The notes beneath the pieces were generated by a model. It saw only the letters and a list, made by a program, of their open reading frames with translations, had not been told where the DNA came from and did no database searches. From Arctopsyche grandis (taxonomy: Eukaryota; Arthropoda; Insecta; Trichoptera; Hydropsychidae), in the NCBI RefSeq assembly GCF_051622035.1, contig NC_135358.1, positions 22,200,501-22,264,500 on the forward strand: a stretch of 64,000 bases of DNA, given 5' to 3'. Every line of letters starts with the position of its first letter. Position 1 is the stretch's first letter. The translations under genes were made by a program, and so were the position numbers. This document shows positions 12,878-62,898 of the stretch, one piece after another.

Positions 12878-12946
12878 TATTTATTTATTTTTAATACAAA
12901 AGCATACCACAGTGTCTTCACAGGTCACCCCAATATGACACTGTGG
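12878..12946 (-). repeat. LINE 3' tail with terminal stem-loop
   Basis: Read on the minus strand: a 10-bp stem CCACAGTGTC/GACACTGTGG (12907-12916 with 12937-12946) encloses the loop ATATTGGGGTGACCTGTGAA, followed by an A-rich (AAATA)n tail. The arrangement matches four other LINE tails in this window. No coding part remains. Confidence 0.7.
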
Positions 12947-13191
12947 CCAGAAAACACATACAAATTTACATGTTTTGTAAGATCGCGAAATATAACTTGT
13001 TTATGAAATGTTTTAAAAAAATATTTTTTTTGCAAAATATATACACGAATAGTTGATGAAATATTCGAATAAAGAATGACTGAAAAATCAGACGAATAAT
13101 TCGAATACTCGAATATTCGAATATTCGATTGGGATCCCTAGATGGGACAAAGGATTGAGAATACTTAAGTTTATGCCTAATAGTATGCTGA

Positions 13192-19170: not shown

Positions 19171-21309
19171 TTAATCTACGTATTTTTTCGTAGGTTTTGT
19201 CTTCTTAGAAGCTTCTTCATCCATATAATTGAAAAGTGGTCTGAAAAAGTACATAATTAATACATAGAAATATACATACATGTGTACAATTCCAGTAGCT
19301 GAATAGATATATGCATTTCAAACCTTATTGTGGAGAAATACAAAATTTCGACGAGACTCAATATGGAAAATCCTAAAAAGAGACCCAATATTCCACCACA
19401 GTTTGCCAAAAAATCTGTCACACCATATAATTCCGATCTTTTTGATGGGATAAATTGGGATTCTTTGAAAAATATCCTCATTTTTGTAAGAGAAAAACTA
19501 AAATTCCAACAATTTGCTATTGTAATAATTGATATTAAGTGAACGATGTCAAGAAATAGGTTTCACAATATACATATGTAATGCCAAACTTTTGTGTAAT
19601 ATAGATCGTAAATATTTGGAAAAATTAAATTTACAGAAAATACTGTACATATGTATGTATGTATAAGTAAATAAAGTAAAAACAAACAACTGATCTTGTT
19701 CTCACGAAACTGCAATACATACCTATCAGTTAAACTTTTGTTATATCCAGCCATACTAAACATATTGTCCATATTAAAATCAGTTTGAGATACTTCAACA
19801 TCATATGAGATAGAAGTACATGCTGGCATGCAGTTGCACTGACTCAAAATATTCTCCATTTTCTTAGATTTTTTTAAATTGCCTGATTTCTGAGCCATCA
19901 TGTAACGTATTTCAAGCTTTTCCATATCCTCTTTAAACAACTCGATGGTTAAAAAAAACGTGTCTATTATTTGTATATCATTATATGTTATATTTGAAAA
20001 ATAAATAAAGAGACGTATGCAATTAGGATGGAGTGCATTTGGACGAATTAATGCGGTTTTTAAATGCCACTTTGCCTGAAGAAAAAGATCTTCGATCAAT
20101 GTGTTTTGCCAGTGATGACGTATAGACGTGAAACTTGGACATTGAACGCCAAGTTGCTACACAAAGTCCAGTGCACTCAAATAAGTACGGAACGTTGTAT
20201 GTTTGGCATAACGAGGAAAGACAGGAAACGGAATACGTGGGTGAGAAGTATGACAAGGTATAGTGGATACAGTGGATAGACTGAAGAGATTGAAATGGCA
20301 ATGGGCGAGCCACGTGGCTAGAAGAATGGACGAAAGATGGACAAAAGGAGTGCTAGAATGGTACCTGAGAGAATACAAAAAGGTAAAAAGAAGACCGCAG
20401 AGAAGATGGGTAAACGAAATTAGGAAAGTGTGTGAGGTGAGATGTATGAGAGTTGCGCAAAACAGAGACGAGTGTAAGCGCGTTGGAAAAGCCGTCATCC
20501 AGCAGTGGATGGTGAATGGATATACATATGTACATAGATGATAATAATAATGATATACCGTTAGCAAATTTGATACAATCCAACCTATCCGTCGTACACA
20601 CAGTCATATCTTTTTCTCCTGAAAATATTCAATTAATATATTAAATTGTATCAATTTAAAGTTTAACTATTGAACTTGACAATACTTACGTGGCATCCAA
20701 TATGCGACACAATCACAAATTTCCATTGTATAATTAGAGAGACACTCTAATGCACAATTTTGTTGTGTATAAATTTTAAAATACTTCAATTTTCTTTCTT
20801 TAGTCATAAAACATTGCCTCCTGGAAATTTACAAATTAAAAAGAAGATTAAATAACTTTCTCTTAACTTTAATGATTCTCTTAAACAAATTTTATGGAAA
20901 GTGTTCCTTTTTGGATCATATTCGGCGAGTGCTTCTGACGTTTTTATCATGTGGGGTTTGATCGTAACTATCAATTCTTGCTTGAGTGGCAGCATAAAGA
21001 ATTGTTGGGACATTTTGGGAACATCTGAAGGAGGGTGAACTGATACCTATCGAGTAAATTATTTTATTGTTAATTTTTTAAATCGCATCAGTCAATAATT
21101 TTTTTTTTTCAAAATATACCCTGAATCCTTGCATTGTCCCGGAACATAGGTAATCTAAATTTTTGCTTATGGCATATAACATTACATGAAGACCCGCTCC
21201 AGAGCTAGGACTCTGTAAAACGTATAAATCGTTACTAATATAGCTATAAACTGTGATGGTAATTTTTCGATTAAACATAATATTGGTAATTAAAAAAAAA
21301 AAAAAAAAA

Positions 21310-24499: not shown

Positions 24500-25345
24500 T
24501 TTTCGACTCACATTTCAGATATGTGCTGTAGGGCTACCAAAATGCTTGGATTTGTTTTGCGCAATACTCACTACTTCCAAGATCCAAGTTTATTGGTATT
24601 GCTTTATTGTTCGTTTGTCCGGAGTATATTAGAGTTTGGGTCTGTAATTTGGAGTCCCCACTGAAATCAAATTCTCTCTTGTGATAGAAAGAGTTAAAAA
24701 CTATATCATGAAAACATGATCAGTGATCGATTCTGAGTTCGAATCAGTCAAAATCTCGAGTTCGAATTTTCGCATGATCACAAAACTTCATCTATTGTTA
24801 CTACGTACATAGATAAAGTAAAAAGTTTCTTAGATGCCTTTATATGAGGAAATATGAATATTACCCCTATTTATTTCCCACCGCCTTTTTACAAGGTATG
24901 CTAGGCTTTGACTCACTATCTTTGAGTCAAAGATAATGAGTTACAATTATTGCCATTTCCAAATATTTCTTTGGAGTATTAAAGGGAAGAATTGCCAACC
25001 CTTCGATTTTATTGGAATTTAAATTTTCAGCGCCTGAATATGGTAGAGCTTTGCGTCATTATTTACTTTTCCAAACTATTCCTGCGAAAACGTCTGCTTT
25101 CAATAACTCGTCTCTTGTAAAGGCTTTCCGGTTCCTTCAATTTTCATGTTGATGAGTCGGTCAGTTTCATGAGATTCAACACAAGTCTAATGAATGAGAT
25201 GAATGATTGGTAATTTTTATTGTTCTTTTCTTTGTAATTTCATTTTTTTGTAAGACTGGTGTGATACTTTGGGGCAACCTGTCAGGTCACATTGGTCATA
25301 TTATTGTTATTATTATCATAAAAATAATAAATAAATAACATAAAA
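24500..25345 (+). mobile_element. Jockey-like LINE 3' fragment
   Basis: A segment at about 24505-24662 translates as part of the RT C-terminal region: CRATKMLGFVLRNTHYFQDP and then LYCSFVRSILEFGSVIWSPH. After a degraded stretch the 3' end has a stem-loop (25255-25264 with 25287-25296) around TTTGGGGCAACCTGT, then (ATTATT)n/AATAA repeats. It is broken by frameshifts and stops. Confidence 0.75.
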
Positions 25346-25479: not shown

Positions 25480-28328
25480 GTGGCGTAACGTGAATTCCAG
25501 GCGCCCCCCCGCAAAATATTTTATGGCGCCCCCCCCCCCCCCCCCATATACACATATTATTTTCTTTTCGGCAAAATAATTTTTCAAAATACATACCTTT
25601 TTACGTAGAAAAATCTGTTCTTCTGGACTTCGCATTGGCAAACACTTCGATTATTTCGTTAATTTTCATTTTATTTGTTCTCTCATGTTCAATACTAATC
25701 AGCGCTAATCCTTTGAGTCGATGTTGTGACATAGTTGACCTTAAGTAATTTTTAATAAGTTTCAACTTAGAGAACGAGCGCTCAGCAGTGGCTACAGTTA
25801 CCGGAAGCGTGAGGAACAAGATGATTGCGGTGGCGATATCAGGAAATGACGAATTTATAGTGTAAAAATCACAAATGAAGAGCTTCGCCAAATTATGAAC
25901 ACTGTCGATCTTCTCTATTTTTTCTCTTAAGCACGAACGAAAATCAAGCACCTGGTTAGGTAGTGACTTGTCAAAGTCATTGACATATTGGTCGGCTAAA
26001 GATTTGGCTTCACGATATAAGTCGTCATCTGATAATTGAATGAGATTTTTACTTTGTAGGAAGACGAACTTTGAAATAATATCGTTAAAAGATGTAAAAC
26101 GAACCTTCAATTGCATCAAGGCTACGTCTAGTGCCGCATTAAAAATTGTTATTTCAAACTTTTTCAATGAATCTTGGAATCGTGTATCATTACTAAGTTC
26201 ATCGAAGTGCTTTTTGACAAAAGATTGACGATTCGATGTCAATTTTGGCTCCAAACCCCATTTTGTTGCAATCGTTGATGAAATCGTTACAAATTCTTCA
26301 AATGTATTCCTAAAACGATTGAGATTGTCGTATGTATTTTTGATCATCGACTGAGCACTGATAACATCGACGTTTTTTGATTGTAGGAGCTTTGATACAA
26401 AGTTGAGAGGCTGAAGAATGTTATCAAAAAGCACGAGTAGGAGAATAAATTCGAAGCTTTCCATTTTATTTTTTAGTCCCTTTGCTTCTGATTGTTCATC
26501 CTTTCTTTTACTTTTTAAAATTATTTCTGTAAGACATTTTAAAACATCTGTATATGAATATCGAAGTGCATTGATGGAATCTAGTCTTGAAGACCAACGA
26601 GTAGGGTTCAATCTTTTTAAAGTAACTGATGGTGAATTTTCCTTAAAAACTTCCCACCTGTTCATGCTGACAGCGAAAAATTTATAAATTTGTTCAACCA
26701 CATCAAAAAAATAAGAAGCTTTTGGGAAACCGCGGAAGAGTTGATTTGTCCGGGAACAAGTTAAGAAGGATTTTTAGAAGACACGATATTTTCTTGATGG
26801 CCTCGAAATGCCAAATTACATTGGGCCAATGTTAATGTTACATTAATAATACGATGAATCACTTGACGGCAGTAGTTTACACGACTTTTCAATTCTGACG
26901 AGATATATTCATCAATTGTCTCAGAATTTTTCCACAAATCGTACGTACAACAGGATTTAGTGTGTACTTGAGATTTTTCGTGAATTGAAATTTTTTTTGA
27001 AAGTCCTCTTGTATGTCTTCAACCCAAGAGGAATTATAATATTTATTTTTTTTGTCAGCAAAAAGCCAACATGGTTCACAGTACGCTCTATTCAGTTTTA
27101 CCGAGTAACCTAGCCACGTCCTTTGTATTTCAATCCCAGACTGGTTGGTCCACTTAAAATATTTTTTAGAAAAGCATCTTTTTCCAACGAGGTCTCGAGG
27201 AAAAGATACAAGATCAGGTTGGCAAGTACCGTGATTCAATATAAATTTCCTCAGATTAGTGTCATTTTCTGTCAGCTCATTTGTGTAATGTCCTCGGTCA
27301 GTCGGATATTTTTCTTGAAGAAGGAACCTTATAAATGAATCGACCACTTCACCAGAAATGTTTGAGGAAGAAGAGCTAGGCTCAGTCGATTGAATTTCTG
27401 CAACAGTTAAGTTCGCCGTATTATCCGTAACTGCTGGTTCGATTACATCGGTATTGCTCAAAGGAGAGCTAGGTTGTTTTTCTGATAAAAATGCTGGAGG
27501 ACTTAATTCCACTATGTCACTAGAGGCTTTGAAAAATTTGTGGATTTTAGTCAATTTCGATGAACTCGCGATTTGAGTATTTTTTCGCTTTCGAGATTCT
27601 GCTCCACTGAATTTTTTCTTAAAACTACTCATATTAAAAAAAATATATGTATCGCGAAAGATTTCTCAACTACAGGGATAACACAATGGTACACTTCACG
27701 TCACTTTACCCTGAGCAATGAGTTAGTTTTTATATACAATGATCAAACACGTTTCGGGAGCTAGTTTTAATTATAATCAATCGCGATCCGATTCCAGAGC
27801 GTGTTCAAAATCAACTGAAGAAAAGTCTGAACGAACACAATGATTTTATGAGTAAAGTTGTAAAATTGACATATTTTGGTCGCGTTCTATGATTTATTAA
27901 TGGAAAGACGTTAAACTTATGTTAAAAAAAAGGTCGACCCATTATAAAACCGACATGCTTTTGACTTTTATGACGGTCTGCAATGAAATAATTTTGGTCG
28001 GAGATTTCAATGCTATTCTCGAAAATAAATACAAAGTTGTAAAATTTTATTGGTTTTCACGCCTCATTTAATTTTGTGTAATTGTATTAACACAAAAAAA
28101 TATATATATACACCTATATATGTATGTATGTACAAAAGTAGGAGAGAATTCTCAGATACATGTACATAACATAAAACGAGATGCGAATAGTTTGAAAAAT
28201 AAAGTAGTGTTTAAAAAATTGTCACAAAAAAATTTACAGAAAAAGTTAAAAAATCAGTGAAAAAGACGCGCCGCCTAGCGGCGCCCCCCCGCATTGCGGG
28301 GTCTGCGGGCGCGGTAGTTACGCCACTG
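25480..28328 (-). mobile_element. hAT element, ZMYM1-like, internally deleted
   Basis: The ends GTGGCGTAAC and GTTACGCCACTG are inverted. They are flanked by the perfect octamer TTGATATA (25472-25479 and 28329-28336), an 8-bp hAT duplication; two terminal bases (CA) seem lost at the left end. Both ends carry C-rich GGCGCCCCCC blocks. Length 2,849 bp. A shorter sister is at 48850-50189. Confidence 0.9.
25605..27632 (-). pseudogene. hAT transposase (ZMYM1/TTF type), central part lost
   Basis: The N-terminal part (27632-26889) has a Ser-rich leader and the TTF-type zinc region: CFSKKYFKWT, TWLGYSVKLNRAYCEPCWLF. The C-terminal part (26701-25601, with its frame beginning a little earlier in ASYFFDVVEQIYKFF) carries the hAT dimerisation end: LTLPVTVATAERSFSKLKLI and HRLKGLALISIEHE. 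The two frames meet near 26800, where family members have several hundred more residues including most of the catalytic RNase-H-like fold. The element can no longer make an active transposase. The reading frames are otherwise long and clean, so the deletion is probably young. Confidence 0.85.
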
Positions 28329-29231: not shown

Positions 29232-29400
29232 AGGAAATTTTCAGCTTTCGACTCATTCACATCGTCCACGTGCTAAAATTATGCCAAATTATCCTAAACT
29301 GACCTCAAAAAGTCAAAATTTCGGCTTTGGGTTTCAAACACATCAGCTTCCGATCTATCGATAGTAAAGTTGGATGTAGCAAGACATAGATGCATAAATA

Positions 29401-29545
29401 TTTATTTTTACATAGATATATACCAGGAAGGCTTGACAGGAAGACCCCAATGCGCCTTCCTGAACAATTATTTACAACCAATGCAGCATTTTATTATTAC
29501 ATAATTCACTGTATTTCCAGAAACTGAAGAACACGAAATAACAAT
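29401..29545 (-). repeat. LINE 3' tail with terminal stem-loop
   Basis: On the minus strand: CAGTGAATTATGTAATAATA, ATGCTGCATTGGTTG, then the stem AGGAAGGC/GCCTTCCT around GCATTGGGGTCTTCCTGTCAA's core, then TAAAAATAAATA. The upstream part matches 46657-46790 and the stem-loop matches 60991-61028. Confidence 0.7.
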
Positions 29546-29735
29546 TACTTAATTAACTAATTTAGAATTAATCCATTGAGACATCTATGGATTTCAGAAT
29601 TGTAAATAATTTTTACAAATTGAACGTACAATAAATACAGAAGATTTGTGACAACAGGAAAGATGATTTTTTTGCCAATTTTGAGGAACCATTTCAACAA
29701 CGATCAGATAAAATTGGTAAGAAACGATCGATTTG

Positions 29736-30262
29736 GAGTCACAAATACCCTCAAATCTAAATCTAAACATATATATGTATATCAAGATGAAATCAAATCC
29801 AAAACCTCCAGAACGAAAAAAAGGTCTAGGAAGACTGAAAAAGACGACAATTGCTGAATATCGACTTTTAAAGCGTTCCTATCTTCAAAACTGCGGTGGA
29901 CATCAGATCGGAGCTTATAGCGGCTGGTGGTTCTAAAATAAATGTAGAAATAACGCGACGTCGCCTTCTTGAATCGAGTTTCCTTGCAAGATCAGCAAAA
30001 AAACCATTACTCACCAACAAAATGCGTCTGCAGCGCCTGAAATGGGCCAAAAAATATGACGATTGGACGCCAAGTGATTGGCAGAAGGTGATCTTCTCGG
30101 ATGAGTGTAAATTCAATTTATTCGGGACCAATGAAATGCAGTATGTGAGATGCAAAACTGGGGAACATCCAAGTAACAAGTGCTTTTTGCCAACGGTAAA
30201 GCATCCTGCAGGATATATATGTATATGGTCTGGGGATGTTTCTTTTACTTTTGTATATATAT
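29736..30262 (+). pseudogene. Tc1-like transposase fragment
   Basis: The first frame (to about 29936) has an HTH-like basic part (ERKKGLGRLKKTTIAEYRLL). After a frameshift the second frame carries RLKWAKKYDDWTPSDWQKVI followed by FSDECKFNLFG, the first catalytic Asp region of Tc1 transposases, and then CFLPTVKHPAGY. Coding ends in TA-rich sequence at 30250; the second and third catalytic residues are absent. Confidence 0.82.
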
Positions 30263-40521: not shown

Positions 40522-40827
40522 CAGTAGAACCTCGATAATCCGAACTAATCGGGGATGAAGTTAGTCCAGATAATCGAAAAAATCATAATTGACAGGGAAA
40601 GACGAGTACATTCAGTATGAATTATTTTTATTTGTCAACATTTACATGTATAATATCGTATAAAGATCAATATTAAATTATTCTTTATTAAGTAATTTAA
40701 TCTCCAAGAAACAAAAGTCCTTTGAGTATTGAATTTTGAAAACAATTGACTTATTTTCGAATTTTTTATGTTATGCATTTATGATTCAAGCTCCGTTTTA
40801 TATTATGCCATCACAAACGTATGTTTT

Positions 40828-41460
40828 ATTTATTTTTTATTTTATTTAAATAGGCACACACACAGAATAAAATATAAAAAGAAAGTGGTATAATGACACA
40901 AAAAAATAATAATAAACATAAATAAAAATATAATATTCCATTTACAGTGAGCACCACATGATGATATAAAAAAGTAAAATTAAAAAGACATCAAGATTTA
41001 AAAAAAAAGAAAAAGAAAGACTATAAGGATGAAGAAGCAAATCAACCACATATTATTTTCTTCACCTTTGTCCTAAAAATACTAAAAGAGTCACTAAAGA
41101 GGTCAGGACAATCATCTAAGCTATCGTAAATACGGCATATACGAACGATTGCACTATTGAAAGAGGTGTTGCTTTGACAAATTGGTGGATAAAAAAGATT
41201 TGTGCATCTGGTGAATCGGGCATTAACGTTAAAATTAATCACACTTAAAACAGATGTGTCAAGAATACCATTAGCAATCTTATATAAAATAAACAAATCA
41301 GAAACCCTTCTACGCTGAGACAAACTTGCAATATGGAAAAAAGAAAGTCTGTCATTATAAGATGGTAACAGTTTTTTAAGACCAGTCTTATAGGATAAAT
41401 GGCGCAAAAAACGCTTCTGGATTGTTTCTAAATGCTCAATGTGAGTTTGGTAATAGGGAG
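40828..41460 (-). mobile_element. LINE 3' fragment (RT C-terminal part)
   Basis: An ORF at 41407-41042 encodes YNDRLSFFHIASLSQRRRVS, DLFILYKIANGILD and a FRTKVKKII end, the region downstream of the RT core in jockey-type LINEs. The 3' tail (AAATAAAATAAAAA-rich on the minus strand) is at about 40828-40850. The neighbouring LINE 41467-42395 seems inserted at its upstream side. Confidence 0.72.
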
Positions 41461-41466
41461 ACCATA

Positions 41467-42395
41467 TTTATTTATTTATTTATTCTAAACAGACCATTGT
41501 GGCATAACAGGAATTCCTAAAGCGCCACAATGGTCAAAAAATATAACACAAAAAATAAAAACAAAATAACAATTAAACATAAACATAAATACATCCATAC
41601 ATAAACATAAAAAATAGCATTTAATAATACCAGATAAAGTAAAAATATCAAATAAAATATAGCATAAGGAATGCCTTGCACCTACAGCCAGTTTCAATAA
41701 ATATGTAAGAAACAACTACAAATACAAAACATCCCTGTAAGGCCCAAATGGAAGAGAGTTAATCAAAATTTCACTCATAAATCACAATCAATCATGAAAA
41801 CAATGATGAGCGCAGACTACCAGATAAATGGGTTAGAGTAATTTCCGACAATTTACGCTCACTAAGGTGGAAAATATCACATTCAGTCTCGGCAGCAACG
41901 ATTTCATTAAGAAGTCGAATAGCTCTTGGAATAGGAGCCATTCGAAAAAGGACTGTGCGGGCAGGAGGTACAGCCAGCAAATGATGATGTCTACCACACA
42001 CATAGTGACTAGGGACATTAAGTCCCAACTGCTCCAGCAACAACGGGCATGACGTATTACCACGTAAGAGCAGGAGAACGAAACGAATTAAAGAGAAGTT
42101 TCTCCGAAGTTCAAGGGAATTATACCCAAGCATGCCCAAAAGGAAAGGAGTGGGGTAGAGATATGGGTAATACCCATATTCTTTCCTATATAGGAAACGA
42201 AGAAATGCTTTTTGCACTTTCTCAATCATCAGAGAGTAATTTGCTTCATGCGGATTCCACACAATCGCATTATACTCTAGCTTACTTCTCACAAGCGAAT
42301 TGAAAAGCAAGCGAGAAGACAAAGGATTGGAGAATAATCTTGCATATCTCAAAACAAATCCAAGTCGACGAAAGGAAACGTCAGCGACTTTCTTG
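41467..42395 (-). mobile_element. LINE 3' fragment with RT C-terminal ORF and stem-loop tail
   Basis: The frame within 42613-41792 contains FRRLGFVLRYARLFSNPLSS, FNSLVRSKLEYNAIVWNPHE, VQKAFLRFLYRK and ARTVLFRMAPIPRAIRLLNE, typical of the part after the RT domain in jockey-like elements. The 3' terminus has a perfect 12-bp stem (41492-41503 with 41524-41535) around TTTAGGAATTCCTGTTAT, then (AATA)n. It is truncated at the 5' side. Confidence 0.8.
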
Positions 42396-42737
42396 ATATT
42401 AATATAATATAATATAATATATAGCTCGTGCAGCGAAAGCTGGCACGTACCAATACAAACACGTATATTGTATCCGTGAAGATATGAATAAGATTTTTTG
42501 TATCTGTTTTCTAGGACAATCAGTTCGTCCCTTTCATACGCACCCACTTTCCGAGCATGACAGAAACAACAATTATTTTTTGTATTGCTCGGTGATTTTT
42601 GCTCAGTGATCAAGTGTGCACTACAGGGTGATTTTTTCCAGTTTCACTGGTCAGTCACCGATCAACCCCCACAAACTGACGTAACGCGTTCTTACAAAAC
42701 CCTACCCGAAAAACCGACCCTACAAAAGTTATTATAA

Positions 42738-44976: not shown

Positions 44977-45420
44977 TACACCAAACCCAAATTACATCCC
45001 ACCATGCAGCAAAAGATAAAAAAATAGATGGGCCATTTTTGATACCTCTATGCTTCAAAGAGTTAAGGTGATTACGGTAATTGGATTATTAGTCACAAAG
45101 ACATTTTTTGCTATGAAAACTGCGAATGAGGAATATTTGGCACTCGAGTTTTCGTTAGTATGATGGACTTTTCGGCTGACAGATGGTCCGTTAATAGAGA
45201 TTTTAGTGACTTTTGGGGGAGCGCTTTGTGACCAATGATCACCGAACCGGTGATAACATCCCAAATGTGAATCACTACCAGGATAAATGCCGCTACGAGA
45301 TCACGGATTTCCTGTCGCACGGGAAAATTTCCATACAGAAAATTGCCCAAATATTGCTCAAAACTGCCCAAATCTCGTAAAAAAGCATTTGCTGAGCAAT
45401 ATTTGGGCAGTTTTCTATAA

Positions 45421-46489: not shown

Positions 46490-46656
46490 TTAAGGCAATT
46501 TTCTTATGTGACAAATTTTCGTGCGACAGGAGATCCGCGCGAGCGATTTTCGAAACGGCGGTTATCCTGGTAGCGATTCGCATTTGGGATGTAACCCGTT
46601 TACCGTATATTAAATGTCGCGGTTGGTGATCCTATCTTTCAAGCCGTGGAATTTTT

Positions 46657-46790
46657 TTTTATTTTATTTTACATAGTTTACCAATAAGGCCTGATAGTTG
46701 CTGCAATGTTTGTAATTAGGCTAGACAATTAATTATAAACATTGCAGCATTTTTATTACATAAATCACTGTATTTCGATAGATGGATGTC
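46657..46790 (-). repeat. LINE 3' tail
   Basis: On the minus strand CAGTGATTTATGTAATAAAA and ATGCTGCAATG align with the 29401-29545 tail, followed by GGCCTTATTGGTAAACTATG and an (AAAAT)n tail. The stem-loop at the end is altered relative to the other copies. Confidence 0.6.
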
Positions 46791-47266
46791 ACTAAAATTT
46801 CGATCACGGAACATCTGACGCCCGAAAATTACATCCATCGAGAGTTGCCCACGCGAACTATTATACTAACGAGAACTCGAGTGCCAGATATTCCATATTC
46901 GCGATTTTCGTGGCAACGATTGTCATGTGCGCGATCACAGTGTGCGAAATAATCCGTTTATAATTTATAGTACGTATCCTGATCACACATACGTTAAAAA
47001 GGCTGTGCGATAAAAATAGAACAAGTTTCACAGCACGTAATTGGTAGGTAGGTATTTAAATTATATTCTTAATTTGAAAATAATTTTAGTTTAAATTTAT
47101 TATCCATTATTGCTAAATATAACAAATTCAAATTATAAGGATAATAATTTAATTGAAGCCATAATTATGAGTTAAACTAGTTTGATTATAAAACTAAAAA
47201 AAATATACCTTAAAACTAAAAAAAATATATCTTATTATAACTTTGATATACATATATATGTTATAC

Positions 47267-47541: not shown

Positions 47542-50500
47542 ATGACTAAACTGACGGAAGAGATGGTTGTGGCGCGATCCAAACAATCTGACCTCTCAAA
47601 CATCAAGAGGCTCAATTGCTGGTACGTCAGATTTATATATGAATATTCTAATTATTCACTATCCTCGTCAATCACGTGGGATACATTTATAATCATCCTT
47701 AATTTGCTTGAATCTCCTTATCCGAAACTATGTATGTACATAATAGTGGAAGATCGTGAAAAATTAATTTACACTTTGTCAAATTATTTGGTGCAATAAA
47801 GCTCATAATTCTGATTGAAATTTGACAACTGTTTTACTTATAATTGAAAAACTTTTTTGAAAGTAATTTTCAAATTTAATAAATTGTATGTGATTTGTAG
47901 ATTCATTTAATTATAATGGTATTTACTTATTTATTCAATAATTTGATGAGGTTAATTTTAAATTTGTTATTTATTGTTGCGAAACAAAAACGTTAATTTA
48001 GCTTTAATCTTTAACAATTTAAAGGTATTTTAAATTGTTCTGGTATTTTATCTCATATATAATTTCGAAATTGTTTCTATTTTAATCAGTGTTCTGAAAT
48101 TTTATAGGAAATGTGAATTATATAAATACATACATATACATATCTGTGTATGTATATACATATCTGTGTATGTATATACGTATGTATAAACTAACACATA
48201 TAATTTATTTATACTATGTATCAATAACTTATATATACTACAATGTATAAATAAATTATATATACATATATGTGCTTCTTACATTTGAATTTATCTGAAT
48301 ATTTTGTTTTAAATTACCAATTTTTATCATGATCCCAAAGACGTCATTTTTGTTAGTTATTCCTCTATCTGTAGATTATCTGTAAATATTTGACATATGT
48401 AGTGTGTATTTGTAGTAGGAAGAAAATTTTATTGATAAATTTGTATTGATAAACCTTGTACAATATTCAATAACAGACAAAGTTGTCAAATTATACATAT
48501 ATGTATTGAATACTTAAATATATAGCCATTGAGATAGCACCAATTGAATTAATTCAAAAATACTGTACCAGTTTTTGATAACAAAACTTTTAAAAGTTTT
48601 CATTTGTGTTCTAATTTACAATACTAATGAAAATTTTTAAAAATACACTAATATGAAATTCTCGTGTTTGATCGTTTACGATTGTTTCATAAAGGCGTAC
48701 AGATTGTTTTTTTTGCTTTGTATTCTGCTTGCTTGTTCGCTTGACCTAAATATATAACTACATATAATGTATATCTAATTCTTATTCACAATCTAAAATA
48801 TTTACTATGTATGTACTTCAGGTGAAACTTGAACTGTAAATACGACTCCCAGTGGCGTAACGTGAATTCCAGGCGCCCCCACCCCGCAAAATATTTTAAA
48901 GCGCCCCCCCCCTTATACACATATTATTTCCTTGCAGCTGTTCCATTAATCTGTTCTTCTGAATTTTGTATTTTCGCGCTCAAATAATTCACAAAACCTT
49001 CTTTATATTCCAAAAGTGGATCATAAGCTACCAGAAGTATAATAAAAACTAGAAAATTTTCAAGGTTTGTTAAAATACAAAAGATTCAAAACTCTCTTGA
49101 CGTCCATCGATATGCCAAATTGTTTTTAGCCAATGTTAATATGACATTAATAGCACAATAATTTACAAGACTTTGCAATTCTGATGAGATATATTCTTCA
49201 ATTTTCTCTGAATTTTTCCACAAATCGTACGTAAAACAGGACCCTCAGAAATTATTTGACCACTTCACCAGAAATGACTGAGGAAGATGGGCTATGATCA
49301 GTCGATTGAATTTCCGCAACAGTTTGCATTAAGTTCGCCGTATTATGCGTAACTGCAGGTTCGATTACATCTCCATTTCTCGAAGAAGAGCTAGGTTGCT
49401 TTTCTGATAAAACTGCTGAAGGACTAAATTCCACTATGACACTAGAGACTGAAAAATTTGTCAGTTTTAGTCAATTTCGATTAACCAGCAATTTGATTAT
49501 TATTTTTTTCGCTTTCTTCACTGACCGTCTTCTTAGAAGTACTCATATTAAAAAAAAACATGAAAGATTTCTCAACTACAGCGAACACAATGGTACACTC
49601 TACCTTGTGCAATGAGCTAATTTTTATATAAAACGATCAAACACATTTCGGCAGTTGGTTTATGTAATTATAATCAATAGCGATCCTATTCCAGAGCGTG
49701 TTCAAAATCAATTGTCGAAAAATCTGAACGAACCCACTGATTTTGGGCGTAACGTTGTAATATTGACATATTTTGGTCGCGTTCTATTATTTATTAATGG
49801 AAAAACGATAAAACTGTATTGAAAAAAAGTCGACTTGTATCCCATTATAAAACCGACATGTTTTTGAATTTTATGACAGTCAGTAATAAAATAATTTTGG
49901 TTGGAGATTTCAATGTTATTAAAGAAAATAGTACTAATTTGAAAATAGTAATACTTTTCTAGTGTATTGTTTTAACACTAGAAAAGTATATATAGGTATA
50001 TGTATGTACAAGAGTAAAAGAGAATCCTCAGTAATATGTAAAAATAAAACGAGATGCAAGTAGGTTGAAAAATAAGAGAGGTTTACAAAAAAAATTTGAG
50101 AAAAAGTTTAAAAAATCGTAAAAAAGGCGCGCCGCTTAGCGGCGCCCCCCCGCATTGCGGGGTCTGCGGGCGCGATAGCTACGCCACTGACAACTCCTGA
50201 AATATATTTGTTTGTGTTTCCAGCCATTTAGCTGAGTACTGACAAAGTCGTGTTGTATTTTTAGGTCATAACTTAAAACAGCATGTACATAGTCACAAAC
50301 CACTATTTTTTTACTTTATTTTTTTTCATGCTGTTATGATTCATGGCATGATATTCCACAAACAGTAATATTTCACGTAATCAGAAAAAAAACTGATTTT
50401 CAGATATTGTGATAAACAGGAGATGACTAAGGCCTATTACTAAACATGCTTATACATGGCTAACATTTAGATTGTTTTGGAAAATTGCTCTTTGGAAAAA

Positions 50501-53500: not shown

Positions 53501-56500
53501 AATATATAAAGTCGAAATTTACCGTAAGTTTACCTATATTGTTTTTTATTTTACCTGTACAATGTATGAACGTAAGTACTGGTAGGTTTTGTCCGCTTCC
53601 GGCCGATTCGATCAGTATTCAAGGCGAGCTCATATACACCCGTTTGGGAACCGGATCACGCAACTCCCAACAGAAATAACACGAATATGTTCATCTGATG
53701 GCATTTATCACAGTTCGACTTTCGTTTTTCATTCATAATTTAGCAGAGGGCTGTTCCAATTTGCCGCGTTTTGGCGCGCTTTCAACATGGCCGCCATCTT
53801 TGGAGCCAAACTACTGGATAATTCAATTAGCTTAAGCTCGTGTTGTAAACTCTATGTAGTAATTAAAATAAAAGAGTTTTCGAAACAAAGGCATTACGAG
53901 ACTAGTAGGAAGCGGACGTGTTCGTCACGAATCGAAAAACAAACAGATCGTGTCGTCTGAAGGGAAAGTCTACATGGAGCAGTACTAGTCGAGAAAAGGT
54001 TCAAGTTCTAAGACTATGTTGAATTTTTGGATTTGGCTAAGAGTTGCGTCCATTATAAATCTACGTGAGACGCTTTTCGAAACTTCGGTAGTGCGAGTTT
54101 TGTTTCCAAACTGTGGAAGTGCTCTGGTAAAGTACAAAATAGAAAACTTTTAAAACAAAAACAATTATCTTAATTGATTCTATGGGTCGTCTTACGAACT
54201 TATGTCGTTATCATACCGTTTTATAATTAATTATTTTAAATGAGAGTTTCTGTAGTTGATCTTCTGAAACGTTGTCCCCAATACTAAAATAGAGCAAGGG
54301 ATATTGCCGGTAGACTCCACGCTGCAGACTGTTTCAAATTTTATTATACAACCGTTTAATTATTTTACGTTGAGGAAATGCTTCAGCTGGAAGTGTTAAA
54401 TATAAAGTGTATTTAAATATTACATCCATTTCAATTTGAATTGTCTATGACGGATGTCCGGAATGCTACAATTCAAGTGCTTTACACAAAGTTTTCATTA
54501 CTTGTTGAGAACAAACTTGATATCGTTATTAAGAATTACCATCGTCATATTACATAGTGTAGGTGGGGCTTAAGGCGTGGACAAATTTCTGTTGAACTTT
54601 AAAAACAACAAATTGTTAACCATTGTTCAAACAGATACAATGACAATCAGTCACAAAAGCCCGTCTCAGTCGACAGGTCTGTGCCTAAACTCAAACTGAA
54701 TGTCAAATATAAACAAGGTAAAGCAAACTGAGACGAAGTCGTGAAGGTCCTCGAACTGTTCAACTTTAAAATGATTCTTAAATAATGTTGTTGTGGGTCT
54801 CATTCTTTGTTGTCTTGAACTCGCAATATCGCGTGATCCAATTTATCAATGGCTTTGTCTGCTTACTCCTACGTGTTCATACGATATATGTACATTATAC
54901 ATACATATGTATTTTTTCCTGTTTAGTTCGTTGTTTTCATATCCTGAAAGTTTTATGCGTGAAGACCACACCTCACGAGTCCCTAAAAATTAAATCTGTA
55001 ATGTGCCAAGTACATATACATGTGTGCTAAATTTAACCGGTTGACTTTTAGACTGGTTAAAAATGGCCTATGTTTAAGTCCAGCGACAAGGATAAGTTTC
55101 AACTCGGAAGATACGGATTTAGATGCAGTGAATTTTCTTCAGGGTATCTAACGGAGATTCGAACCTGTGACCCTTCTTGAAGAAGCTTCTCTGCGCGCAA
55201 CTCGCCCGTAAAGAACGTCTATTGTTGTGCGTAACAAACCGACCGTTAGGTTTTCTCACGCTATATTGCAAATGAAGAACGCAATCGATCGCCTTAACTC
55301 TTTTTTCCATTTTATTATTAGGTTTTTTTTGAATTTAAAGGCTTTATACCGGGTTGACACGATCCGAGTTACCCAGACCGAGTAGCTCGGACGTGTAGAG
55401 TTGAGCGCGGTCCGATTTACTCGGTCGAAAAACGGTTGGATCACCTGTTGCCACGTTACGGGTAACGTCCGAGATACTCGGTCTGAGCTACTCGTATCGT
55501 GCCAACCCGGGTTTTAGAATTTATTTATTAATTTAACTCCTATCCACCACGTGCTTATACGATTATTATTAACAATCCACTGTGATTGGCTCATACTCGG
55601 GTGTCTATTATAATTTATTCGTGTGATTTAGAGCTTGCTGATTCGTAATTAACAATTATTAGTTTCAAGAAAGTGCAAAGGTTTGAAATATGTGAATTTT
55701 TATACCATTATCACAAACTTTACCGCCTATCGTTGTTTTCTTACGTACATATGTGCTACTCTGTATTCTTGAGGAAAATTATCGAGGATGCGTAATGAAA
55801 GTGTCTTACAGTCCCAGTTCCCTTCTTGAAGTCGCGAAAAAGAAAAGAAAATAGGATTATTCATGGGAAGAATAGTCTTATTTTTAAAGTAGACACGTAG
55901 TGGTTTTATATCATACATATTGAAATAAATACATATTGAATCTGTATTAGTAACCAATACTCACCAATACAGCGTGTTAAGTAATTGAATTGGCATACCT
56001 GGAGCGGCATGGCCGAGAGGCGACATCGTGCATGAATTGCCATATAACATAATTATCCTATGCTATATGACAACACTGACAAAACTCAACGAAATAATAT
56101 GTCGTACACTGTGATATACAAAAGGTCCCGGTGACAATAAATCGAAATAATAAAAAGCTCGTAAAGATTCAATATCAAGCGATTAAGTTAATGTACGTAT
56201 GTTGCAATGTGCACGGGGTCTGGGGGAAGTTAATAGACACTATTTGGTGGGAAGAAAATATGCCCCTTTACTTTTAATCGTTGGATAAAATACGCCGACA
56301 TATGATAAAAATGCTGTAAATGTTTGAAATAAAACGTTAATTATGAATTTTGATGCCTGTATATCACCTGTTATCGTAACCGAAGATGGATAATCATTAA
56401 GGCAAAAACACACTGAATCAAACGGCACGGGCACGTTCTTGGCCTCCCGTGGTAAAAAAACCGACAAGTTTCTCCTACATTTAATCAAATATGTGAATCA

Positions 56501-60300: not shown

Positions 60301-60990
60301 GAAGAAAACAGCGCATAATTAATAAATAAATGTATTCCATACACACAATTCTGCAATCTAAATAGTGCATTGTATAATATGTCTGTAATATTTTGAAAAT
60401 TATAAATTTTTTGTAGAATTTAAGCAAATTTATAAAAAATAGACAATAAGTACATATATTTTTCATAATATTATTATATTTTTCAAACACCTTTTTTTCG
60501 TCAGTTTCGTCAAAAACGGTCAGTAATTTAATAAAAAATTATCATTAAATATTCTCAAAAGTGGTCAGTAAAAAACAATAAAAGGTCACTAAAAAAAAGT
60601 AAATGGTCACTTAAAACAATAATCCAAAAAACAATAAACGGTCAATAAAATACAAAAAATGATCACTGATTTCTCTGATTCTGTTTTCAATTTTTCCAAT
60701 TATCTTAGACACATCAACACATCGTACTGTTCGTGCGAGTGTCCTTTTGAATTATTGACTATTTATTTTAAATGCTAAAACTTTTCTAAAAATCACTTAT
60801 TATTTAATTTAGTTACAGACCATTCAATTTTTATACTGACCACAATCATACAGACCAATTGTAATAGTAACTGACATCTGATTTAATTTACTGACCGTAG
60901 AAGAGAATTAGTAACTGTCCATTTAAATCAAGGCCAAACATTTTTACAAAGTTGTTTCTATGATTTATATTCATAATAATTATGTGGACA

Positions 60991-61075
60991 AGGAAGGCGC
61001 ATTTGGGGTTTACCTGTTAAGCCTTCCTGGTATATTTGTATATATGTATGTAAAAATAAAAATAAAATAAAATAT
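60991..61075 (+). repeat. LINE 3' tail with terminal stem-loop
   Basis: The stem AGGAAGGC (60991-60998) pairs with GCCTTCCT (61021-61028) around GCATTTGGGGTTTACCTGTT, followed by GGTATATTTG and an (AAAAT)n tail. It is the same family as 29401-29545 and in the opposite orientation. Confidence 0.72.
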
Positions 61076-62699: not shown

Positions 62700-62898
62700 T
62701 AAATTAGGTAGTGAAATTAGATAAAGCAAACTCTGATAAATTAGATAAAGAAACGATCGACTTGGAGTCACCCACCAATATCCAAGTCTGCAGAAATACT
62801 CCGAATAAATTATTTTCAATCGAAGTCAACCCAGGGCTTGAACCCGGGAACCCGTCGATGGTTAGCATTAACACAACCACCGAGCTATACTACCAGCC
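62700..62898 (-). repeat. tRNA-derived SINE-like sequence
   Basis: On the minus strand the head reads GGCTGGTAGTATAGCTCGGT, with a box-A-like TAGCTCGGTGG and, about 45 bases on, a box-B-like GGTTCAAGCCC (62834-62844). The region then runs into unrelated AT-rich sequence. No acceptor stem can be closed, so a SINE is more likely than a functional tRNA. Confidence 0.55.

Follow-up and report, generated by a model that had tools for sequence, protein, structure and literature searches.

How the enzyme of a LINE finds its own RNA has been worked out for few elements so far. The locus analyzed here raises this question, since a preliminary description reported five LINE 3' ends with a hairpin whose stems differ and nevertheless pair. 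Is this hairpin maintained as an RNA structure, which elements carry it, and what would read it? The window, i.e., the whole analyzed stretch of 64,000 nt, corresponds to C4:22200501-22264500 of the Arctopsyche grandis genome (475,669,232 bases in 189 contigs). All five hairpins were found within a few bases of where they had been placed, with stems that differ yet pair and with the reported G-T wobbles in hairpin D (Table 1).

Table 1. Hairpins and associated retroelement features in the window
Feature	Position	Strand	Remarks
Hairpin A	41492..41535	minus	11-13 bp, perfect; ends the 3' UTR of a LINE; -26.0 kcal/mol, z -7.5
Hairpin B	29422..29464	minus	SINE 3' end
Hairpin C	12906..12947	minus	11 bp
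Hairpin D	25254..25297	plus	12 bp with G-U wobbles; end of LINE
B-stem-type hairpin	60988..61031	plus	very short insert; shared sequence begins near 60974
(AAAT)n tail of the 41492 LINE	41465..41484	minus	
LINE ORF2, C-terminal part, 5'-truncated copy	41795..42400	minus	same protein as ORF2 end of L032 and L050; 5' limit approximate, by eye
Decayed second LINE ORF2, C-terminal part	24539..25140	plus	identity to the 41492 LINE is 34% in one stretch and 46% in another
Headless SINE-B copy (tRNA-derived)	29396..29760	minus	88% to a SINE in L039
SINE-B 3' fragment, broken hairpin	46640..46785	minus	retains 3' arm and tail; other sequence in place of 5' arm and most of loop; limits approximate
LINE-like 3' end, contrast	40824..41467	minus	141-aa open frame, A-rich tail, no such hairpin

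The hairpins follow a common plan, which consists of a 5' arm of 11 nt, a 5' internal loop of 4 to 5 nt, an inner helix, a terminal loop of 4 to 5 nt and, on the 3' side, an internal loop T-N-A-N, a 3' arm of 11 nt, a spacer of 7 to 22 nt and an A-rich stretch, the latter being readable in the sequence at all five sites. The pairing stems and the kept loop core of the preliminary description were both recovered, but 11 bp describes the stem best, and the supposed loop contains a second short helix, formed by TGGG or TAGG with CCTG (in RNA, the UGGG/CCUG type). In two of the five hairpins the terminal loop is GTGA or GCAA, both of the GNRA type. Across the set the outer stem ends (ACCA/TGGT) and the inner end (GnC/GnC) are mostly conserved; the variable positions are the middle four pairs (CAGT, TTGT, GTGT, or GGAA) and the tenth. 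One mismatch within the 11-bp frame is present in each of the 60991 and B hairpins. Predicted folding alone gave the common plan for four of the five, whereas the minimum free energy structure of hairpin B is a different fold, with the outer stem alone visible in the centroid. A scan for the tail also picked up four of the five, B being absent because its A-rich stretch is short.

Five sites with the motif T[GA]GG-N3-6-CCTGT and a stem of at least 8 pairs occur in the window, compared to a total of 6 over 400 dinucleotide-shuffled windows, with the motif having been defined after the five hairpins had been seen. A sixth motif site, at 54687 (minus), has a stem of 7 pairs. The contrast was less sharp under a looser score, where the top value among 100 shuffles (43.5) fell inside the range of the five hairpins (41 to 49.5). 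A covariance model trained without hairpin A recovered positions 41493-41534 with 43.9 bits (E 4.7e-9, such model E-values being rough). The whole window gave no match to Rfam at gathering thresholds.

Covariation was quantified as the number of two-sided changes among paired cells. In the five window hairpins, 97.1% of 70 cells are paired, a fraction that falls to 37-58% when the partner is slid, and 11 cells carry two-sided changes compared to 3.6 ± 1.4 in shuffles, none of 500 reaching 11. By a weaker measure, the number of pairs with a two-sided change, the excess was smaller (5 versus 3.0 ± 1.0; 28 of 500 shuffles reach 5). Eleven hairpins from the window and the rest of the genome, excluding the three weak rows H, G2, and I and with hairpin G placed in its own register, showed 96.4% pairing and 33 two-sided cells compared to 8.3 ± 2.3 (0 of 500 shuffles), with such changes in 8 of the 11 outer pairs. 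When G was left out as well, 26 cells compared to 7.1 ± 2.5 and 6 of 11 outer pairs remained.

With all 14 hairpins, a nonblind sample in which several members had been found by a model that favors pairing, the count rose to 46 two-sided cells compared to 14.1 ± 3.3, and sliding the partner lowered pairing from 89.5% to 32-56%. In this set, all 11 outer pairs and one inner pair covary; the figure of 11 of 11 depends on H, G2, and I, which were picked from tail-less sites for pairing at 8 to 9 of 11 positions and without which it is 8 of 11. H and G2 are poor folders (z -1.5 and -0.6). The covarying inner pair is G-C in 7 of 13 hairpins and A-U in 5 of 13, while another inner pair is U-G in 14 of 14. 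The number of further pair types was equalled in 9 of 500 shuffles. In this alignment the G row stands out of register, counting mostly against the structure; with G in its own register, the 14 hairpins yield 52 two-sided cells. Selection on RNA structure, as suggested previously, is well supported by these comparative counts.

The compensated stem changes lie between families. Within the 41492 family, random substitutions that break pairing are not the pattern: the stem is nearly uniform, and the few changes, such as the single uncompensated substitutions in L023 and L026, look like decay of dead copies.

Further hairpins were sought in the same genome using R2, a covariance model of 42 positions (not to be confused with the R2 element mentioned below). 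Applied to 46 loci with both strands counted, R2 matched 120 sites with E no higher than 0.05, many of which represent the probe family and its antisense. Among 29 R2 rows examined, 24 represent hairpins distinct from the copies that had been targeted, and 2 of these 24 belong again to the 41492 family. Stems unlike those in the window were found in hairpins E (GCCATAGTGAC), F (GCCACAGCGAC), and G (GTACACTCGTC). The model finds LINE and SINE ends whose arms have little sequence in common.

A stem-blind scan, which looked for loop and tail with no demand on the stem, covered 294,139 bases, namely, the window and 38 loci chosen for or beside the probe family. It yielded 43 sites, of which 41 have 10 to 11 of 11 pairs; after subtraction of 26 probe-family copies, this holds for 15 of 17. 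Loop sites with no tail in reach, 26 in number, have 10 to 11 pairs in 5 cases, 8 to 9 in 4, and 7 or fewer in 17. At one site of the scan (L031, 2462), the loop and the 3' arm are kept and the 5' arm is gone, perhaps reflecting a copy truncated at that point.

The assignment of all five hairpins to LINE 3' ends stood for two of them, A and D. Hairpin B ends a tRNA-derived SINE, the 60991 hairpin has the stem of this SINE, and the parent of C was not assigned. The last part of the LINE ending in hairpin A occurs at at least 40 places with 98-100% identity over approximately 436 nt (40 scored of 1869 candidates); two further matches are short and 69-70% identical. For its ORF2, all 69 scored matches are 97-100% identical, so the family is young, and at least 20 of them lie in frames of 988 codons. 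In L050, such a frame is open for 988 codons from stop to stop and ends approximately 250 nt before an identical hairpin. The hairpin is present at the 3' ends of LINE copies with a long ORF2, in 10 of 10 cases (L050 to L059; frames of 749 to 988 codons): in nine, the hairpin lies within 480 nt after the longest frame, and in the tenth, L056, it was located via the R2 model. The hairpin also forms inside the predicted fold of the entire L050 3' UTR. In that fold (L050:300-622, minus; z -4.9), the hairpin is surrounded by pairing between U-rich stretches and the (AAAU)n tail. Six of the ten copies (L052 to L055, L058, and L059), located at ~31 to 34 Mb on contig C2, share a common 3' flanking sequence, and that part of C2 therefore seems to be a repeated segment containing the LINE.

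The ORF2 product contains a reverse transcriptase domain (RVT_1, E 9.8e-27) and an Exo_endo_phos match (E 6.3e-5) whose 23.3 bits are slightly below the curated cutoff of 24.5. Among solved structures, its reverse transcriptase part matches human LINE-1 ORF2p and the R2 element. On these matches the 41492 element is classified as a LINE (non-LTR retrotransposon) with an APE-like endonuclease; its reverse transcriptase may be Jockey/CR1-like in appearance. Four hairpins, D, F, G, and A2, have sense-strand remains of ORF2 upstream that are 27-62% identical to the 41492 LINE (F, 46%; G, 44-51%; A2, 62%). The stem of A2 is nearly that of hairpin A, and the relatives at 27-51% identity combine a similar loop with other stems. 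An exact-word search for target site duplications at the five window elements found no convincing ones. In viral_contigs, protein and alignment scans confirmed no LINE relatives. The loop pattern does occur in 13 of these contigs, and the occurrences were rejected as chance (at most 5 outer pairs in 10 of them, 7 in 3); the contigs look coding by eye, with no LINE-like A-rich tail in the 60 nt displayed.

The element at 29427 is a tRNA-derived SINE (SINE-B) and not a LINE. In better-preserved SINE-B copies, a tRNA-like head containing A and B boxes is followed by a central domain, and the hairpin lies 330 to 338 nt after the B box. The A/B-box pattern is present in four SINE-B copies and in an element at L027. 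Overall, of 8 A/B-box heads counted in 39 sources, 5 have the hairpin (at least 8 of 11 pairs) 330 to 393 nt downstream. Rfam at gathering score gave no match in five loci holding SINE heads, and no tRNA match was found near the headless window copy. A search for target site duplications by exact words at five SINE-like elements gave two weak candidates.

SINE-B and the L027 element share loop and plan with the LINE hairpins; a LINE with the exact SINE-B stem was not found in the loci examined. Besides its tRNA-like head, the L027 element contains a central domain that is 71-91% like that of SINE-B over 45 to 156 nt, and it ends in a decayed hairpin with a G-like 5' arm (8 of 11 pairs). Together, they look like a single SINE lineage in which the LINE-type 3' end comes in two kinds, judged on very few copies. 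Most of the closest matches to the 60991 insert begin 14 to 15 nt upstream of the hairpin, and the matches have two kinds of upstream sequence. Among its short B-type copies, the arms are in place in 15 of the 20 examined (of 39 other scored matches) and not in 5. A further SINE head with central domain lies at 62712-62891 (minus; 65% to an L039 SINE, with tRNA-like A/B boxes); no hairpin was found within 650 nt of it, and it may be a SINE whose 3' end is of another kind. The broken SINE-B hairpin listed in Table 1 sits in one arm of an inverted-repeat pair (45108-45347 and 46494-46916). By eye, its 5' half has been replaced by an inverted copy of the adjoining upstream ~20 nt, with one difference, as if by a snap-back template switch.

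Several known systems resemble the one described here. The 3' hairpins of L2-clade LINEs are simpler and shorter than the present one, and the ORF2 of this clade has a known tail-binding region. According to one report (PMC4176376), LINEs of this clade (UnaL2, ZfL2-1, and ZfL2-2) and their SINEs likewise have a 3' hairpin before a repeated tail, the ZfL2 ORF2 binds the 3' stem-loop, and the LINE requires the stem-loop for retrotransposition. For ZfL2-1, the same text describes about half the rate with a swapped stem and an essential loop, which decides specificity (PMC4176376). In contrast to the L2 clade, the Arctopsyche hairpin combines an 11-bp stem and an internal loop with an inner helix that contains U-G/G-U wobbles and CCUGU, and its tail is of the (AAAT)n type; the likeness is one of hairpin. 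One monocot L1 lineage has a 3' hairpin with compensatory stem changes and conserved loop letters that is common to maize and sorghum SINEs; its loop is UCU with a CGAG flank, whereas here UGGG...CCUGU is found, in a different host kingdom (PMC3747384). For human L1/Alu (3' UTR stem-loop), SART1, and the R2 element, a structured 3' end is proposed or shown to be recognized by the LINE protein; set against the present hairpin by description, L1 is classed there as relaxed-type with poly-A, and the R2 element needs approximately 250 nt of 3' UTR (PMC5135761).

In the lepidopteran SINEs HaSE1/HaSE2 and PxSE1/PxSE2, a tRNA head and a shared central domain are joined to 3' regions that differ, and one of these matches a LINE. 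Exchange of SINE 3' regions is already described for Lepidoptera; unlike here, the partner of HaSE1 belongs to the RTE elements and terminates in TGA repeats (PMC3272025, PMC8010984). The word hairpin is absent from the main texts of both reports, and the word stem is also absent from that of PMC8010984. In the open-access literature surveyed, no description of the present hairpin was found. The kind of hairpin is known from L2, plant L1, SART1, and the R2 element; the present hairpin is new and clearly covarying.

By analogy with the ZfL2 elements and the monocot L1 lineage, the hairpin is most likely what marks the 3' end for recognition in one group of LINEs that have an APE-like endonuclease, a reading to which we assign a probability of roughly 80%. 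The ORF2 protein of the LINE would bind the structured RNA of the LINE or SINE and bring the adjacent A-rich tail to the nicked target, where target-primed reverse transcription would start from that tail. The stem would be needed as a helix, and the probable specific contact is the conserved inner part, i.e., the internal loop, the U-G/G-U wobbles, and CCUGU. Like the preliminary description, we infer recognition by the LINE reverse transcriptase from known LINEs; what has been added is a classical sign, a tRNA-derived SINE with the same hairpin, as predicted by recognition through a "stringent" LINE reverse transcriptase.

Covariation is silent on which protein binds, and the hairpin sits between UTR and tail, where a folded 3' terminus might shield the RNA. 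It might instead be a site for a host factor in RNA 3'-end processing, stability, or export and not the mark of the reverse transcriptase. tRNA-derived SINEs would, however, be Pol III transcripts, so a shared reverse transcriptase fits the hairpin on SINEs better than Pol II processing does. In addition, the LINE-like end at 40824-41467 has its A-rich tail without the hairpin, and we consider the host-factor role improbable. This contrast element was called a LINE by eye, its sole match to the 41492 LINE spanning 27 to 30 aa (E 0.1 to 0.24). An AT-rich pairing within it (40833-40879) was rejected as a decayed hairpin, with 7 of 9 motif letters and an AT-only stem.

Compensated arms would also result from any selected palindrome in DNA, such as a cruciform or a feature serving integration or recombination, without any role for RNA, and in the outer stem, G-U exceeds A-C by just 11 to 6, a small excess (misregistered G row excluded). 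In the inner helix, however, U-G/G-U wobbles, which pair in the sense RNA only, occupy 26 of 55 cells compared to 1 for A-C. The loop is, moreover, strand specific, since R2 scores 54.7 bits in sense and 26.3 bits in antisense at 41493-41534, and an A-rich tail follows 43 of the 69 loop sites of the stem-blind scan, all of which makes a DNA-level role very unlikely. Equally remote is a neutral leftover of shared ancestry, in which chance, or gene conversion from one arm to the other, keeps the pairs: the families have homologous loops and stem ends, and some pairs of families are 73-82% identical in an arm, but the arms of G are 9-36% identical to those of A, B, or D and still form 12 of 12 pairs in their own register, unconstrained copies do lose pairs, as in L023 and L026, and the covariation in the sets of five and 11 hairpins as well as the stem-blind scan disfavors it.

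Returning to recognition by the LINE enzyme, one genome here combines a young, abundant LINE, sister families that differ in their stems but retain the inner hairpin, and SINEs ending in the same kind of structure. This amounts to a natural swap experiment in which stem, internal loop, and inner helix are separable. As a tentative and rather doubtful extension, the stem could act as a code specific to each family, with the inner part serving as an anchor common to the whole group. The stem would then have drifted with the ORF2 of each family, so that sister enzymes avoid each other's RNA, and SINEs with a shared head and central domain would have swapped hairpins to follow the active LINE.

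Other features of the window include remains of a hAT transposase at 25601-27665 (minus; PF05699) and a repeat pair, 27322-28328 and 49238-50189, with 80% identity over ~1 kb. At 19563-20156 (minus), a fragment resembling an amiloride-sensitive sodium channel, for which PF00858 scored slightly under its cutoff (E 3.8e-5), is perhaps an exon of a host gene.
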